Below, one piece after another: positions 9,263 through 63,058 of a DNA stretch of 64,000 nucleotides. This DNA is from Plicaturopsis crispa FD-325 SS-3. Lineage: Eukaryota; Basidiomycota; Agaricomycetes; Amylocorticiales; Amylocorticiaceae. Below the pieces are notes generated by a model. That model made no database searches and had not been told where the DNA came from. It was given only the letters and a program-made list of their open reading frames with translations. The stretch lies in contig KN832574.1 of NCBI GenBank assembly GCA_000827205.1, positions 233,491-297,490 on the forward strand, given 5' to 3'. Position 1 is the first letter of the stretch; each line of letters begins with the position of its first letter. The translations under genes and the position numbers were made by a program.

Positions 9263-12880
<3,618 letters not shown>

Positions 12881-36300: not shown

Positions 36301-39206
36301 ATGTCTTACCAGGTCACTGCGTCGTCCTTGACTCCTTCTCGTCCTGCACCACAAGCACCGCAGAGACGGGCTACGGACAGCCCCATGTACGCCAATAATA
36401 ACGCACTCGCCTCATCGGGCTACAACACCTCTTTTACGCCTGCGTCCCCTGCGGGATCCTCATATGCCGCATCGTACACCGGCATCGGAGGCTCCCCGAA
36501 TCGTACGTCGGAGGCGGCGTTCAACAGCCAGGTCGTCCGCGCGGGAACAGTCAACGTCAAGGAGGACGGGTTCGCTAGCTGGCTCTGGAGGCCGAAATGG
36601 CTCGTGCTGAAGGAGCAGACTCTCTCGATACACAAAAACGAGGTGAGTATCTAGTCTCAAGATCACTGCGCTTATAGTGTGGCGTACTGGCTTCGAGTCC
36701 GCGCTTCAAGGAGGATGCATGTGTCGATGAACAACTGATCGTGCAGATGCATCGACATGATTGTCTCCACGCTGGTCGTATATGGGATACGCAGATACTA
36801 ATCCGTTTCTCTCCAGAGCGCCCCGCAACAGAGCGTGATTTACTTGCGCGATATTGCGAATATCGAACGAATAGACCTGAAGCCGTACTGCCTTTTGCTG
36901 GAGACGAAGGACAAGCGGTATCACCTTGCACTGAAGAGCGACGAAGAGCTTTACGGATGGCAAGACGACGTCTACTCGCGTAGCCCACTTATGGGCGTCA
37001 GCAACCCCACGAATTTCGTCCACAAAGTCCATGTTGGCTTTGACCCTCAATCTGGCGCCTTCACTGTAAGAGCCCCGTGCTCCTCATCGAGAATGATTTG
37101 ATTGACAACCTTTCAACGCGTAGGGAATGCCCGACCAATGGAGCAAACTGCTCACAAAGTCAGCGATCACCCGTGAAGATTACGCCAAAGACCCTCAAGC
37201 CGTCCTGGATGTTCTCGAGTTCTACACCGACCATCAAAAGCGGGAAATGGAGGAGATGATGGCTATGTCTGGCCGCTCCGGAGGCTCCTCTAGCGGTGGC
37301 CAGTCTACTCTGTCTCCGTACTCGAGTGATTCCACGGGCGCCCCCGCCCGGTTCAACGCAGGTACCGGCCTTGCAGGCATGAGCAAAGTATCTCCCCTCG
37401 GCGGCGCCGATTCCCGTCCGAGCGGCGAGAACGGCAACATGTCATCTACTGCTATGGCCGCTGCTCGTGCAGCAGAGCTTGTCAACTCCCAAGTACGTGC
37501 TGCATCTCGCCTACCTGCCTTGTGCTGACCCAATTCGTCTACAGTCCTTACAGGCTACCAGACCTGCCCCTCCTCGGCCTCTCCTCACCGCTAACCGTCC
37601 TGCCCCTGCTGCTCCCCGCAGCGACCCGTCGAAACCGGCTCTGCCGGACCATACCCCCTCTTCGGCCGATCTCCGCGCCCGAGCGAAGGCGCACGGTCCG
37701 CCCGAACAGCCCGGAAGACCCTCTGGCGAGAAGGCGCTTCCCCCGCGGAAGGACTCGCTCGCCACCGACCGAGAGCAGGAGCGCGACCGTTCCCGGGACC
37801 GGGATCGCGACCGCGAACGTGAGCGTGAAAGGGAGCGCGAACGTGATCGGGAGCGGGACAGGCAGCAGCAGCAACGGCCCAACCTGCCTCCGGCGAAATC
37901 GTCGCCCGCGACGTCGCAGCCTGCGACCCACCCCGCGCCCGGGCCCGCTGGCGCCACTGCCGGCCCGCCGCCTGTGAAGCCCCTGCAGCCGAACAAGAAA
38001 ACCGCGCCCGCCGTTACGATCCAGGCGCCCCATGATAATGAGGAAAAGGGCAGCGTGGCTGCGGCCGCGGCCGCGCTGGAGAAGCCGAAGGAGAAGGAGA
38101 AGCGGATCAGCACGATGACGGAGGTGCAGATTATGGAGAAGCTGCGGAATATCGTCAGCGACGATGACCCCAAGACGTTGTACAGCAAGATTAAGAAGGT
38201 CGGGCAGGGGTGAGTGCCTATGGAGGTTGTGTATGCCGCTTTGCTGATGGCTGCCGACAGTGCCTCGGGACATGTCTATGTTGCGAAGACGCTCGCGACT
38301 GGCAAGAAAGTCGCCATCAAGGAGATGGACCTTTCGCACCAGCCGCGGAAGGAGCTCATCGTTAACGAAATTATAGTTATGAAGGAGTCCCAGCACCCTA
38401 ACATCGTCAACTTCTTGGAGTCGTATCTCGTCAAGAACAACGAGCTCTGGGTCGTCATGGAGTACATGGAGGGTGGTGCCCTGACCGATGTCATTGAAAA
38501 TAACACATTAGAGGAGGATCAAATCTCCAGTATATGCTTTGAGGTGCGTAATTTGTTTTCTCTACACTTTCATAGCTTACGCCAATCGTGGCATAGACTT
38601 GCAAGGGCTTGGGACATCTGCACAGCCAGAGTATCATCCACCGAGACATCAAGTCCGACAACGTCTTACTGGACGCGCAAGGCAGGGTGAAAATCAGTGC
38701 GTTCATTCCACCGCGCACTTGCTTTCTTCGATACTCACACCCCGATAGCCGATTTCGGTTTCTGCGCCAAGTTGACTGACCAGAAATCCAAACGCGCGAC
38801 CATGGTTGGCACGCCGTACTGGATGGCGCCCGAAGTCGTGAAGCAGAAGGAATACGGCGCGAAGGTCGACATCTGGTCGCTCGGCATCATGGCCATCGAG
38901 ATGATCGAGAACGAGCCCCCATATCTGGACGAAGAGCCGCTAAAGGCGCTGTACCTCATCGCGACGAACGGCACCCCCACGCTGAAGAAGCCGGAGGCGC
39001 TTAGCAAGGAGCTGAAGAACTTCCTCAGCGTGTGCTTGTGTGTCGACGTGCGGAGCCGGGCGACTGCGAATGAGCTGTTGGAGGTGCGTTTTTAATCTAG
39101 TACGGTGGGGCATGTACTGACTGTGCTACAGCACGAGTTCTTGAAGAAGGCGTGCGCATCGTCTGGGCTTGCACCCCTCCTCCGGTTCAAGAACAAGCCC
39201 TCGTAA
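36301..39206 (+). CDS. CLA4: p21-activated kinase, CLA4 type (PH, CRIB, kinase)
   Basis: Effector kinase of Cdc42/Rac acting in polarity, septation and cytokinesis. Order: S/P-rich N-terminus; PH domain from [20 protein letters not shown] to [20 protein letters not shown] motif [16 protein letters not shown] followed by [14 protein letters not shown]; a long linker with a striking Arg/Asp/Glu repeat (about 37770-37860); kinase domain with [44 protein letters not shown] and [13 protein letters not shown]. The end is [17 protein letters not shown] and FKNKPS. All catalytic residues are present, and the PH domain marks CLA4 rather than STE20. About seven introns. It lies 3.1 kb from a pheromone precursor gene, meaningful because PAK kinases are mating-type linked in several basidiomycetes. 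Confidence 0.93.
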
Positions 39207-42286: not shown

Positions 42287-42409
42287 ATGGATGCATTCAA
42301 CACGATAGCTACGCTCATCGCACAGGCCGCCTCTGAGGAGGTACCCCCTCCGTCGGACGAGGAGCATAACTCATTTGCCACCGGCAATTCATTTTGCGTC
42401 GTTGCATAA
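42287..42409 (+). CDS. Mating pheromone precursor 1 (CaaX lipopeptide, ends CVVA)
   Basis: An intronless 40-codon gene. It starts MDAFNTIATLIAQAASEE, has an acidic centre (PPPSDEEHN) and ends TGNSFCVVA directly before the stop. The start MDxF, the 40-55 residue length, the acidic middle and the terminal cysteine-aliphatic-aliphatic-alanine box are the known hallmarks of agaricomycete pheromone precursors. The cysteine is predicted to be farnesylated, VVA removed and the end carboxymethylated. N-terminal cleavage is likely near EEHN, where many precursors are cut at ER, EH or similar pairs, leaving a lipopeptide of roughly 11 residues. It would be a ligand for a STE3-type receptor. A TATA-like box lies 150 bases upstream. 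It is too short for most gene finders. Confidence 0.88.
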   Translation: MDAFNTIATLIAQAASEEVPPPSDEEHNSFATGNSFCVVA

Positions 42410-55072: not shown

Positions 55073-56550
55073 TCAGACGTCCGAGTGGCTGGACATCTTG
55101 CGGCCGGGCTTGAGGTCGTTAAGAGAATAGCCATCCTCCCCGCCGTCTGTGACGATGTCGTGTATGACGTTCACCTCGACGCCGCGAGAGGACGCTACAT
55201 TGATCGCCGGGCGGTAGTCGCTGTTATCCATGCGTGCGGTCTTTCCACCCCCCGCCTGCCTAGGCAGCCCATGCGTGAGCCCGAGTCCCACTCGGACGAC
55301 GATCAGCAGCGGCGTCGTTGCCTAAGTATCACACTATCAGCCTCGAGTCCAAGCACAAGCACACAAGGAAAACATCGCGCACCGCCAACTGAGTCGCGAC
55401 GTCGATGAACGACAACGCCACAGCCGTGTCGCTGCAATACAGCACCAGTATCACGATCGTCGCCGTCGTGAACAGCGCGCCCGACTCGATGACGGTGAAT
55501 ATCGCTGAATCGTACTTATTCGGCGGTCGAGGCAGGTGCGAGGACATGGCGCGCGCGACGCTGCGGCCCATGTACCACAGCCGCCCGGCGATGGCGAGGG
55601 TGATGCCGACGTTGATGGCGAGGTCGAGGCTCCAGCCCGCGAAGGCGGAGCTGCGCACGGCGGTGGAGGTGATGTCCGCGCCGGGCCGGGAGAGCTGGAA
55701 GGCGGAGAAGAGGGCGGATCCTAGATGGGTGTGTGTGAGATGTGGGTGGGGGAGGGAAGAGGGGGGCGGTACCTATTTGGGCGTTTACGATGACTAGCTG
55801 GATGTTGTTCTGTTCAGTGTTGCGGACAGTTTTGAGCTAGTCATGGCACGAACCGGTAGAAGACACAGTTTCCAGTTCCTCCCATATACCACGTACATAC
55901 GCCAGGTCTATATACCGACTCGTGTAAGGAACGTCGCTTCAAAGCGGAAGAAGACGCACAAGAATACAATCTTGGATCCAGCCCTTTTAGACGCGGGATC
56001 AGGCATTGCCAGTCAACATAAAAGCAAGACGTTCAACTCACAATGATCACGTATATATATGTTTTCGTCACTTCCGCAGGATTGGTGTTAACCGTCCAGT
56101 ACAAGATGGATCCTTGCGGCTCGCCAAGCTTGGGGATATCGACGAAGGCTTCGACTAGTTGTTTTAGGGAGATGCTGATATGGGCTGTGGCGAGGACCAG
56201 CAGGAGGGTGGATGTTGCGCCGAGTACCCTGTGTATATAATGTTTGTTGAGAAATGTAGGTGTATGATTATAGCGATCGAGAATGTACCATGAAGAGCGA
56301 TGAGCTCTGCCTCGCTTCAAGACGAATAGACATACACTGTATAGTACAAGGCTGGATATCAAACAGGTCTCAGCGGTGAGTGCATGGACCAGGTCATAGT
56401 AGCCCATACTTTATTCCTGTGGAGAGTCCACTTATCAACATCCATGGCGGTGAAGTTTTAGGACGACTTACCGAACAACACGGTTCCCGTCCAAATAGAA
56501 ATAATATTTATCTTGTCCAACGGCGGCAAGGTAGCGGGACTCGACGCCAT
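55073..56550 (-). CDS. Seven-TM protein, basidiomycete-specific family, paralogue 1
   Basis: Starts MASSPATLPPLDKINIISIW then TGTVLFG. A 7-base micro-exon (GAATAAA, about 56417-56423) reads on to give FGIN before LVLYSVCLFVLKRGRAHRSS. Helix 3: VLGATSTLLLVLATAHISIS followed by LKQLVEAFVDIPKL. Then TKTYIYVIIV, GWIQDCIL and TWRMYVVYGRNWKLCLLP, a conserved block of this uncharacterised family. Later: AGWSLDLAINVGITLAIAGR with LWYMGRSV, IFTVIESGALFTTATIVILV and LGLTHGLP. The cytosolic tail ends YSLNDLKPGRK and HSDV. Lacks the LPWHLQAWN-type motif of STE3. Function unknown; a receptor-like role is speculation. Tandem paralogue at 58.0-59.6 kb. Confidence 0.75.
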
Positions 56551-58039
56551 CGAGGGATATGCAGGCCTACGAGCGGAAGGATGGATCGGCTAAGTATCCG
56601 GATTCTAATCGATCCCTGTAGCACCATAAGTATGTCACAGCACACGAGCGTCAAAAAAAACTATCGCACCTACATTGAGGAGGAGCAGGCCAGTACAGGG
56701 GACCGCGTATGAATCAGGGTTCTCAGACTCCGACTTCTGCGGCAGGGCATGAAAGGGCGTGGGGTGTGAGATTTCGGAAGTGGGCGTAAGAGGGTGGGTG
56801 AACTCTATTTCTGAGCTGCTCCTGGACAGCAGAAGAAGAAGAAGGGTGACATGTGTTGGCAGAATGAGATGGGGTACGCTCTTCTTTGCGCCACATAACA
56901 CGGATATGATTGACAGAGGCGAAGGAGACTGGAGATATCGATCATTCATTAGTGCAGTTTCGGACATAGGAGTCCACGCTTGGGCGTTAGAGCGATGAGG
57001 GGCTACTCACTACCGTTCCTCGTGTAAGTATCGGGTCCCGAAATGTAAAAAGGCAACAGGAATTGGAGAAGCCACGTACTCAGATGTGAGAGAGTGAGGG
57101 GTCTATAGCTGCAGACTTGGAGCTTGGCAGTCTGGGGTACACCGATTGAAGGTTGGTGCGTCTTATGTGCGATGCACGACATTTAGTAGCGCCTTCAGCC
57201 ATCTCAGTTCGTCGTATCGCGGCGATTGGTGGCACGCAGTGTACGGCAAGTCTAGTATTGAATGATTCAGCGATCAGTAGTCATTTTAATCCAGAGAACC
57301 CAGGAGCTGTACCAATATCTCAGTGAGCCAGTCACCGTCCAAACTTCCAGTAATAAAACGAGGACGTCTCAGGAGTCGGGCGCGGTGACCGGTGACCGGT
57401 GACCCGCGTTTCTTTCCATTCGTGAGATAAATCGTGAAGTGCACGACCAACTTAGGACCAACTGGTCTGCTGACCACTGTGTATCCGCCATTCTTCGATA
57501 CATGCCTAGGTGTAAAATTACATGCTATATCTGGCCATGCTGCTACCGTGCTGACCTTCAGAACATGCGCTGTGACAAAAGTGGGACGAGCGTACCGTTC
57601 TTCTCTGCGCGCTTTTGATCAAGCACCTCCCGACATATTCACCGATATTCTGAAGCCACAGTATGCTTGGGTACTAGGTATAGTGGTAGTAGTACTACTA
57701 GGAGTATTAGGGGAAACGGCGGCAACACGAAAGCAAACGAGACGGCACCACGTGAATACTATAGAAAGGCGCGTGCACCGAGACGCGTACATATAATTGA
57801 ACGATTCACGCGCACCTTGGTTCCAGACCTGAGTATACGTAGGAAGTTGTGATTGAGCAAACCAAATGCACCGCCTTGCGTGCACCATGAAATGCTGGCC
57901 CGGTATGGCAGGGTTCTCATAACAATAAATATATGCGAAAAACGATACATGCACCTCCCTCCTCCCCTCGCACTGTAAACCGTACATGATTACCAATACA
58001 GGCCACTACATCGAGTCATCCGATGTCTAGAACGCCTCC
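56551..58039. other. Spacer between the seven-TM paralogues
   Basis: About 1.5 kb. No gene recognised. Contains a small GTGACCG repeat (about 57386-57403). Confidence 0.4.
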
Positions 58040-59586
58040 TCAGACAGCCGAAGGATGTGCCTTTAGATCGTTCAGAGAGTAAGTCTCTTCTCCGGAGATC
58101 ATGGTGTCGGGCATGGTATCAATCTTGACACTGTGCGACGGCCTCGCGGCATACTTGCCAAACGACTGAGGAAGCGGACCTGCACTCATCCTGGGCCCGT
58201 ACTCGCAATCATCCGATCGAGCGCTCTTCCCGGCCACGCGATGCGGCAGACCGTGCGTGAGCCCCAATCCGACGCGGAAGACGATTAGCAAGGGCGTAGT
58301 TGCCTGTCGAAACGTACACACGTCGGTAAGTAATGGTCAGACGCGAAGTATGGTGGGACGTACGGCCAATTGCGTCGCGACGTCAATCCACGCCAGCGCG
58401 ACGATGCTCCCGCTGAGATACAGCACCACCATCACAATCGTCGCAGAAGTGAACAGCGCACCGGACTCCACAACCGTGAAGATCGTCGACAGGTACCTAT
58501 TCGGCGATGTCAACCCGTGCACCGGCCCCGCCGTAGTGTACATCGACCCCGGCGTAGTGTGCATCGCCCCCGCCGTGGTGTGCATTGACCCCGCCGTGGT
58601 GTGAGACCCCGACGCGGTATAAGACACTTTGCGGCACATGTACCACAGCCTGCCCGCGATGGCGAGCGTCACGCCTACGTTTATGATCAAGTCGAGGCTC
58701 CACCCTGCCATCGACCAGTTCCGCACGGTGTGCCCGGTGCGCAGGGCTCCCGGCTGTGAGAGCATGTAGGCGGCTACGATGGCGCAGCCTGTCGTCGTGC
58801 ACCTTGTCAGCATTTCGGTGAGGGGGTATGGGATGTTGATGGGGGACGCACTGATTTGGGCGTGTTCGATGAGGAGCTGTGTGATGCGTTGTTAGTTTGC
58901 GTTGGATGTTAGATTGGAGGGAGGGGTGTACCGGGACGATGATGATTTTCCAGTTTCGGTCGTATATGATGTACATACGCCAGGTCTGCGGATTCGTTTT
59001 AGCGGGAAGCGTTTGTGGGCCTCTGAGAGGTACACGTACGAGTACAAGGTCTTGGATCCAGCCCTGTAATCATACGGTCAGACAAATAAAACGCGGGAAA
59101 TAATTTTGGGAGCTCGCTGACAATGATAACATATACGTAGGTCTTCGTGACGTGGTATATCAAGCTTGGGGGTGTCGACGAATGCTTCAATGAGCTGCCG
59201 CAAAGAAATGCCGATGTGCACAGTTGCAAGAAGCAGCAGAAGTGTCGACGCGGCGGCGAGCGGCCTGTCGTGGATGTGTGTAAGTGTGCCCGCCGGATGG
59301 TGAGCGATAGGGTTGGGGGGCGTACCAGGGAAAGCGATGGCCGCGGCCTCGTTTCAAGACGAACAAGCATACGACATAGAGAATGATACTGGACCGCGGA
59401 CGCGTGCCGTTGAGAAATTGCAGCATACGACGAGTGGTGGAACATACTTTATTCCTGTGTACCAAAACGATCAGGAATGGGGCGAATGCTAGCGGGAAAT
59501 GACCTACCGAATAAAACAGTCCCCGTCCAGATAGATATAAGATTAATCTTGTCTAGCGGCGGCAGCGTAGGGGAGGAAGAGGACAT
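58040..59586 (-). CDS. Seven-TM protein, paralogue 2, probably frameshifted
   Basis: Collinear with paralogue 1: MSSSSPTLPPLDKINLISIW, the same 7-base micro-exon (GAATAAA, about 59452-59458), IILYVVCLFVLKRGRGHRFP, ASTLLLLLATVHIGISLRQL, GWIQDLVL, TWRMYIIYDRNWKIIIVP, AGWSLDLIINVGVTLAIAGR, IFTVVESGALFTSATIVMVV, LGLTHGLP and YSLNDLKAHPSAV. After FVDTPKL, about 44 bases present in paralogue 1 are missing, which is not a multiple of three, so VTKTYVYVIIV falls in another frame. No intron choice I tried repairs this, so the gene is probably a recent pseudogene unless the assembly is wrong. An in-frame 24-base minisatellite adds HTTAGSM-like units to a loop absent in paralogue 1. Confidence 0.65.
58526..58613. 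repeat. 24-base coding minisatellite
   Basis: Nearly four copies of a 24-base unit (plus strand CCCCGCCGTGGTGTGCAT with variants) encode HTTAGSM, HTTAGAM, HTTPGSM and YTTAGPV on the minus strand inside the seven-TM paralogue 2 loop. The other paralogue lacks it, so it arose after duplication. Confidence 0.8.
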
Positions 59587-61872: not shown

Positions 61873-61995
61873 TTATGCGACGACGCAGTACGTTCCAAGG
61901 CGCCATTGGCTGTCCTCGTCGACTAGAAGAGAGGCATCGCCGTCATCTTCGTGTGCGCCGGACGAGATGTCGAGGATGGAGGTAAATTCGTCCAT
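61873..61995 (-). CDS. Mating pheromone precursor 2 (CaaX lipopeptide, ends CVVA)
   Basis: An intronless 40-codon gene. It starts MDEFTSILDISSGAHEDDGD and ends VDEDSQWRLGTYCVVA at the stop. It shares the GTYC plus aliphatic-aliphatic-alanine end with precursor 3 about 1 kb away, so the two are recent relatives, while their N-terminal parts have diverged. The predicted mature lipopeptide runs from about the DEDS region to the farnesylated cysteine and carries a tryptophan, as several agaricomycete pheromones do. A TATAAAAC box lies about 165 bases upstream (62159-62166). Confidence 0.88.
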   Translation of the reverse strand: MDEFTSILDISSGAHEDDGDASLLVDEDSQWRLGTYCVVA

Positions 61996-62890
61996 GGGAG
62001 ATGATACGGTGATGATTGGGTCGCAAAGAACGACGGTGCTAGAGTATATGGTAGCGCGATGGGTGCAGCGAGGACGTCTATGCTGTTCGAGTCTCTACAG
62101 ACTGTACAGATGCTCTAAGTGGGTCAATTGGGGGAATTTGAGGAGAATGTGGAGCCTGGTTTTATAGGGAACCGCAATCGCATTGTCCGCATTTCGTAAG
62201 TACTTTTTCCGGGCGCCATTGTCGTGCCTCGAGCCATCACGGTGTAGAAATTGCAGTAGGCGAGTTTGGTAACGAGCGTCGAGAGCAAAAGGCAGAAAGG
62301 GCATTGTTCGCTAGAAATGGACAATAGTCACAAGTCGCGTGACGTGACACCTCGCGACTCCTTGGCGCGAGTTTCCACTGCGCTCGAAATTCGCACTCAA
62401 GGGAACGAGCAAAGTCGTCGTAGAAAATAATTCGAGACAAGGCGCTCCGATACAAAAAAAGTAGGTATAAGACTACATACTGATACAGCGATGATTCTAT
62501 ATCGTGCGGGCAAGCACATTGGAAACCCCCGATAATGAGCCTGAGATAGAAACTGAGAAACGGCACTACTGCGCGAATCAAAGCCCCCCAACTCCGAAAT
62601 GGAACCCCTTTGGGCCCACCCCCCACGGGTATAATGCGCCCCCCGTGTGCCTTGTGTTGCGAGGGAATGAATAATCGGTGCAGGGCGATGTCGGATGTCG
62701 AGCGAGGAGAAATAATGGGACTGATGGAGAGATGCGAAGGCGAATTGATAATGATAAATATGCTCGTAGCAATGCTGGACGCTGTGTGGAGAGGGATTAG
62801 CTCGCAGGACTGAGATGGGACAGAAAGCGCAATGACACGAACCTGGTTAGACGACCGCACACGAATAATAATGCAGACACGGGTCTGGAA
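61996..62890. other. Spacer between pheromone genes 2 and 3
   Basis: About 0.9 kb holding the promoter of precursor 2 and the 3' flank of precursor 3. No third small CaaX gene was found in it. Confidence 0.45.
62159..62166 (-). promoter_or_regulatory. TATA box of pheromone precursor gene 2
   Basis: On the minus strand CCTATAAAACCAGG, about 165 bases before the start codon at 61995. This is the clearest TATA box of the three pheromone genes. Confidence 0.55.
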
Positions 62891-63058
62891 TCATGCGATG
62901 ACGCAGTACGTCCCGCTGTGCGATGGGCTGTCGGAATCGACAAGAGGACGGCTGGGATCTAGATCGAGCTCGTCGTCGAAGGCAGCGTCGGCGGGCGCTG
63001 AGGGTGGTGGTGCGGTGAGAGCCGCGGACGCGAGGTCCAGGATAGCGTATGCGTCCAT
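62891..63058 (-). CDS. Mating pheromone precursor 3 (CaaX lipopeptide, ends CVIA)
   Basis: An intronless 55-codon gene. It starts MDAYAILDLASAALTAPPPS, has an acidic centre with DDELDLDPSRPL and ends DSDSPSHSGTYCVIA at the stop. CVIA is a very common CaaX box among mushroom pheromones. The predicted mature peptide is short, within SDSPSHSGTYC, with the terminal cysteine farnesylated and methylated. The start at 63058 is the only ATG giving the MDAY opening. It is transcribed in the same direction as precursor 2. Confidence 0.88.
   Translation of the reverse strand: MDAYAILDLASAALTAPPPSAPADAAFDDELDLDPSRPLVDSDSPSHSGTYCVIA

Follow-up and report, generated by a model that had tools for sequence, protein, structure and literature searches.

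Very probable pheromone precursor genes P1 and P2 at the edge of the B mating-type locus of Plicaturopsis crispa

Can two open reading frames of only 40 and 55 codons be told apart from chance and, if they are genes, do they encode the ligands of a B (pheromone/receptor) mating-type locus? This question is raised by a pair of frames near the end of the stretch of P. crispa DNA studied here (64,000 nucleotides, C21:233491-297490, hereafter the window), which comes from a genome of 33.2 Mb in 49 contigs. Protein matches point to strain FD-325 SS-3 of this wood-rotting mushroom, also called Plicatura crispa and classified in the Amylocorticiales (Agaricomycetes). The evidence leaves little doubt that both frames, P1 and P2, are lipopeptide mating-pheromone precursor genes located at the edge of the P. 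crispa B locus. As regards the assembly, a run of N occupies C21:230860-233490, immediately before the window, and the database entries for these genes give 420,200 bases, compared with the 414,072 of C21 used here (for C18 the length is 636,974 in both).

The two frames and their family

The features on which the argument is built are the following (window coordinates, with scaffold coordinates in brackets):

61873-61995 (C21:295363-295485), minus strand: pheromone precursor gene P1 (very probable), 40 aa, ending GTYCVVA at the stop codon, MDEFTSILDISSGAHEDDGDASLLVDEDSQWRLGTYCVVA
62891-63058 (C21:296381-296548), minus strand: pheromone precursor gene P2 (very probable), 55 aa, ending GTYCVIA at the stop codon, MDAYAILDLASAALTAPPPSAPADAAFDDELDLDPSRPLVDSDSPSHSGTYCVIA
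42287-42409 (C21:275777), plus strand: third precursor-like gene, 40 codons, MDAF...GNSFCVVA and stop codon

P1 and P2 are open from ATG to stop on the same strand, with a CaaX box (CVVA and CVIA, respectively) flush with the stop codon; the ORF listing thus agrees with the initial annotation, which had described same-strand frames of 40 and 55 codons with the CaaX exactly at the stop. The third frame, absent from that annotation, was found by scanning for a Cys four residues before a stop, and lies 19.5 kb from the pair; the last kinase match ends 3.2 kb before it. Two minus-strand membrane-protein genes that look alike by eye (55.3-56.4 and 58.3-59.4 kb; 55332-59448) adjoin the pair, the second of them containing an MHTTAG-type repetitive stretch, and three of their ORFs have no Pfam family.

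When compared with the Pfam pheromone family PF08015 (cut-off 22 bits), P2 scores above the cut-off (23.0 bits, E=1.7e-4), and P1 (12.2 bits, E=0.41) and the 42287-42409 frame (16.3 bits, E=0.022) score below it. This cut-off is nonetheless poor ground for exclusion, because the published Flammulina precursors FvPP1-3 score weakly too, with Pfam E-values of 0.0013, 0.45 and 0.035 in the part of the source at hand (PMC3140503). An alignment of ten P. crispa precursors is more telling: all of them begin MD-F/Y, contain an acidic site and end in CaaA, and, in P2 numbering, D2, D41, C52 and A55 are invariant and M1 and F4 nearly so (Y4 in P2). In place of a charged maturation pair (ER, EH or DR, 10-15 residues before the C-terminus), the acidic site reads DED in P1 and DSD in P2; ER and EH, known in the precursors of other species (PMC3140503, as far as the accessible text goes), occur in neither.

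How are the two frames related to each other? Their last 56 nt are 75% identical (E=1.4e-6) and 9 of their last 15 residues agree, so that the part of the initial proposal that invoked a duplication is favoured by related 3' ends, and a duplication is likely judging from this similarity, even though the full-length normalised score of P1 to P2 (0.32) is almost matched by that of P1 to the C21:300787 precursor (0.31). Counted over the last 57 nt with the stop codon, P1 and P2 differ at three first, seven second and five third codon positions (3/7/5); in this tiny sample, the lack of a third-position excess points to change in the mature peptide or to relaxed constraint rather than to strict purifying selection. 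Pheromone specificity resides in the C-terminal mature peptide and not in the N-terminus, which the initial annotation had emphasized, and the change of specificity that it placed after the duplication is hypothetical.

The receptor cluster and its flanks

The initial annotation had assigned the pair to an agaricomycete B locus, and this assignment is backed by four STE3 receptor genes and five further precursor frames beyond the window end, as well as by a PAK/CLA4-type kinase and an SNF2-related domain within the window and by shared promoter motifs. The corresponding features are:

C21:298104-299204, minus strand: STE3 receptor R1, nearest the pair (homology match)
C21:301474-302546, plus strand: STE3 receptor (homology match)
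C21:306420-307503, plus strand: STE3 receptor (homology match)
C21:310330-311359, minus strand: STE3 receptor (homology match)
C21:299611, 300787, 304206, 305162 and 308706: five more precursor frames among the C21 receptors
C18:307902-308090 and C18:311340-311537: two precursor frames on another scaffold
37124-39092 of the window, plus strand: PAK/CLA4-type kinase gene, one PBD part and two kinase-part ORFs, presumably a single gene
11333-12154 of the window, minus strand: ORF with an SNF2-related domain (PF00176, E=6.6e-17)

The four receptor genes and the five precursor frames among them fill 14 kb of the scaffold past the window end, and altogether seven precursor frames lie within C21:295-309 kb, plus one at 275.8 kb. 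The nearest receptor, R1, has its stop at C21:297927, only 0.4 kb past the window end and 1.4 kb from P2. Two further STE3 genes (S1 and S2) are found on C19, which brings the genome total to six, and no STE3 match occurs on C18, the scaffold bearing the two precursors at 307902 and 311340. Splice-aware alignment yielded an open spliced model for six of the six receptor genes, with an independent annotation compared for R1 only, whose model is 100% identical to PLICRDRAFT_119070 of strain FD-325 SS-3 across its 358 residues. Ten ORFs beyond the receptors gave no Pfam family (0/10).

One of the C18 precursors has two pheromone-like units (NSYCVVSK...NSYCVVA), and in this resembles P0007 and P0009, two proteins from metagenomes. 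For rhodotorucine A, the available part of PMC3068285 describes tandem units with spacers that are CAAX-like; for double-unit mushroom precursors, none was found in the open-access literature, whose matches, as far as their accessible text shows, concern rusts or ascomycetes.

The receptors were also placed in a tree that comprises the six P. crispa models and 46 hand-chosen references, the latter drawn from the homologues of R4 (best 120 of 288) and of R1 (best 120 of 849). In it, R4 groups with the Rcb2/BBR1 class (80/85, with the fork drawn open), R1, R2, R3 and the C19 gene S2 group with the Bbr2/B-alpha-2 class (100/100), and S1 forms a long branch of unsure placement. The homeodomain mating genes (A locus) are located at C2:2636082-2644288, i.e., on a scaffold other than C21, bearing in mind that scaffolds are not chromosomes.

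Towards the other side of the pair, the kinase gene shows its PBD part in 37124-37525 (E=2.4e-8) and its Pkinase parts in 38214-38687 (E=2.8e-18) and 38691-39092 (E=5.2e-29), and a Tubulin_3 domain of the DML1 type is also present in the window. The Tubulin_3 domain comes from a Pfam survey of the whole window that took in 105 of the 139 stop-to-stop ORFs measuring 120 aa or more; among shorter ORFs, the three precursors were scanned. Ten ORFs at 41-54 kb have no Pfam family (0/10), and scanning the window for tRNAs and Rfam families brought no matches.

Promoter motifs, introns and annotation gaps

Upstream of both genes, the following minus-strand elements can be recognized:

62160-62166, minus strand: TATAAAA, a TATA-like box 171 nt before the ATG of P1
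62181-62186 and 62217-62222, minus strand: two ACAATG sites upstream of P1
63187-63192, minus strand: TATAAG, a TATA-like box 134 nt before the ATG of P2
63226-63231, 63276-63281 and 63295-63300, minus strand: three ACAA[AT]G sites upstream of P2

ACAAAG and ACAATG are the core of HMG-box sites, and it was from such sites that the form ACAA[AT]G and the length of 250 nt were set before counting. The ten 250-nt regions upstream of the precursors contain 16 of these motifs (two for P1 and three for P2), and none lies within 250 nt upstream of the 42287 and C21:300787 frames (2/10). Random stretches of the contigs examined average 3.0 and have at most 11, with 0/5000 draws reaching 16, in a comparison that was made after the counts had been seen and whose stretches take in coding DNA as well as the cluster and are unmatched to the promoters of other genes. 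First-order resampled promoters average 2.4 and do not exceed 9 (0/2000 reach 16). Along 104 kb of C21, of which 2.6 kb are N, [AG]ACAATG occurs 57 times, and 30 of these sites fall between 295 and 312 kb, that is, in the pheromone/receptor cluster. A putative HMG-box pheromone-response factor probably drives the expression of the precursors via the ACAATG/ACAAAG sites. In smut fungi, the pheromone response element is ACAAAGGGA, according to the accessible part of PMC3248468; the ACAATG motif was not found in the open-access literature on the term, among the matches listed.

Are genes of this size recorded at all? Nine proteins came back from a profile search of the protein database, and six of them are P. 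crispa precursors that match frames on C21 and C18 (PLICRDRAFT_47011, 47009, 47006, 95786, 362547 and 362560), although PLICRDRAFT_362560 is modelled with a different N-terminus and 47006 with one additional C-terminal residue. Four of the ten precursor frames (P1, P2, C21:275777 and C21:300787) were not returned, in a search that a longer or wrongly modelled protein over a frame could escape. P1 and P2 are therefore apparently unannotated, and the earlier remark that such genes are easily missed holds for both of them, six other P. crispa precursors having been returned by the same search.

A further reason for incomplete models may lie in the stop codons. The precursor at C21:299611-299828 (MDTF...SRSFCVIA) has its stop split by a candidate 50-nt intron (C21:299777-299826) that reads T/GTGAG...CTAAC...CTCTAG/AA, with CTAAC as a branch-like site, and PLICRDRAFT_47006, which corresponds to this precursor, is marked partial and ends CVIAC. 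A loss of the stop was considered and rejected for this gene, given that the candidate intron would restore the stop T/AA. In 7/10 precursor genes (C21:299611, 300787, 308706, 275777 and 296381; C18:307902 and 311340), a stretch resembling an intron is found at the stop or soon after it, compared with 13% of random stretches; P1 has none and P2 (C21:296381) has one weak candidate. Since the search expression was written with examples already in view, the idea that pheromone genes generally have an intron in the 3'UTR was not retained as a result and is only a lead. The open-access literature matching introns in pheromone genes concerns, in its accessible parts, rusts or ascomycetes.

These observations allow a tentative extrapolation, which we consider possible but doubtful: the annotations of agaricomycete B loci may undercount pheromones, because frames of 40-55 codons are skipped and intron-split stops hide the CaaX. 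The 'CaaXW' of Flammulina FvPp1 could be the same split-stop artefact, as TG/GTRAGT reads as W and then stop. If the extrapolation were true, a scan joining MD.F...CaaX frames, split stops and ACAATG-rich promoters would uncover extra pheromones in many species.

Alternative readings, function and comparison with known loci

Could P1 and P2 be mere open frames whose CaaX-like ends arose by chance? When CaaX is defined loosely, the window contains 5 such frames, a number reached in 37/300 dinucleotide-preserving shuffles of the whole window, so CaaX alone is worthless and it is the shared start and end that carry weight. Frames of 30-80 aa ending in [FYW]C[VILTA][VILTA]A at a stop number 3 in the window, as opposed to a mean of 0.007 and a maximum of 1 in the shuffles, and when an MD.[FY] start is added the window retains 3 and 0/300 shuffles have any. 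At the genome scale, the DNA pattern [FY]C[VIM][VIM]A-TRR has 11 matches in 33.2 Mb (3 in a backwards-read control), 2/11 of which end in TGG, which TRR also allows, and 9/11 in a true stop. Precursor frames account for six of these nine, and five of the six, including P1 and P2, are on C21 at 275.9-308.9 kb; of the remaining three frames, two are 42 residues long and lack a methionine, and one has 17 residues. The pattern misses CTIA and CLIA ends, so the 11 matches are not a census. With 0/300 shuffles producing the specific form, with the genome-wide matches clustered and with P1 and P2 sitting among homologous precursors beside STE3 receptors, the chance reading has a minimal probability and is rejected for practical purposes.

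A different matter is whether P1 and P2, being real, are 'extra' pheromones near receptor-like genes with no role in B specificity. Specificity-neutral receptor-like genes are common beside B loci, according to the available parts of PMC8161036 and PMC3140503, the six P. crispa receptor genes equal the number in S. commune, in which 4/6 receptor genes per genome are receptor-like brl genes (PMC8161036, same restriction), and P1 and P2 occupy the cluster's outer edge. Nevertheless, R1 is near Serpula lineages whose S7.9 and S7.3 copies are only 64% identical, as mating-type alleles would be, an argument limited by possible paralogy and by the weak support of the R1 group (92/67). On balance, a pair without mating-type specificity is unlikely. 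Still less probable is that one of the two, more likely P1, is a decaying duplicate no longer made or recognised: P1 is shorter, scores below the Pfam cut-off and takes part in the 3/7/5 codon-position pattern, which is also compatible with relaxed constraint, but it is open from MDEF to an exact CVVA-stop and is preceded by two ACAATG sites and, at -171, by a TATA-like box, at least one of which features decay would usually break.

The preferred reading is that both frames are pheromone precursor genes at the edge of the B locus. The frames, their kinship, the adjoining receptor cluster, the flanks and the motif enrichment are what the analysis itself gives; the chain that would connect them with mating is drawn from the known biology of such peptides. 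Expression would proceed through the ACAATG/ACAAAG sites by means of a putative HMG-box factor, and the precursor would be translated as 40 or 55 residues. The Cys of the CVVA/CVIA box would then be prenylated and the last three residues lost, and a cut at the acidic site ahead of the tail would release a predicted mature peptide of about 9-11 residues ending in GTYC. Once secreted, this peptide may activate the STE3-type receptor of a mate of different B type, which would lead to nuclear migration and clamp fusion, and no response would be expected from the receptors of the own strain.

P1 and P2 are most likely real and useful additions to a well-known kind of pheromone. They extend the ligand list of the B locus of P. 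crispa (Amylocorticiales), for whose mating genes, or those of its order, no paper was found in the open-access literature, outside which most subscription journals lie, and the pair, the receptors and the promoter motif together are direct targets for matching peptide to receptor.

With respect to known agaricomycete precursors of PF08015, as described in the accessible parts of the sources on Flammulina (FvPP1-3) and Trichaptum (Phe3.2/Phe3.4), P1 and P2 are alike in being short, in the MD start and the CaaX at the stop, in the acidic region ahead of the tail, in the closeness of STE3 genes and in their weak Pfam E-values. Unlike them, P1 and P2 carry DED/DSD and no ER or EH. As for the flanks, CLA4 is linked to the B locus in other mushrooms and not in Flammulina (PMC3140503, available part), so this flank is not universal. 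The closest parallel in architecture is offered by the MATB of Trichaptum, which, according to the accessible part of PMC8970355, is flanked by PAK, RSM19, DML1, RIC1 and SNF2 and has four putative receptors, with two pheromone genes within a 30.3-kb region. In a comparison that covers PAK, SNF2 and DML1, P. crispa likewise shows four clustered STE3 genes and, in the same stretch of DNA, PAK, SNF2 and a domain of the DML1 type, with the PAK at about 23 kb and the SNF2 at about 50 kb from the pair. Unlike the two pheromone genes known from the available description of Trichaptum, P. crispa has seven precursor frames in C21:295-309 kb plus one at 275.8 kb, and, in relation to known precursors, P1 and P2 stand as a tandem of two at the outer edge of a four-receptor cluster.
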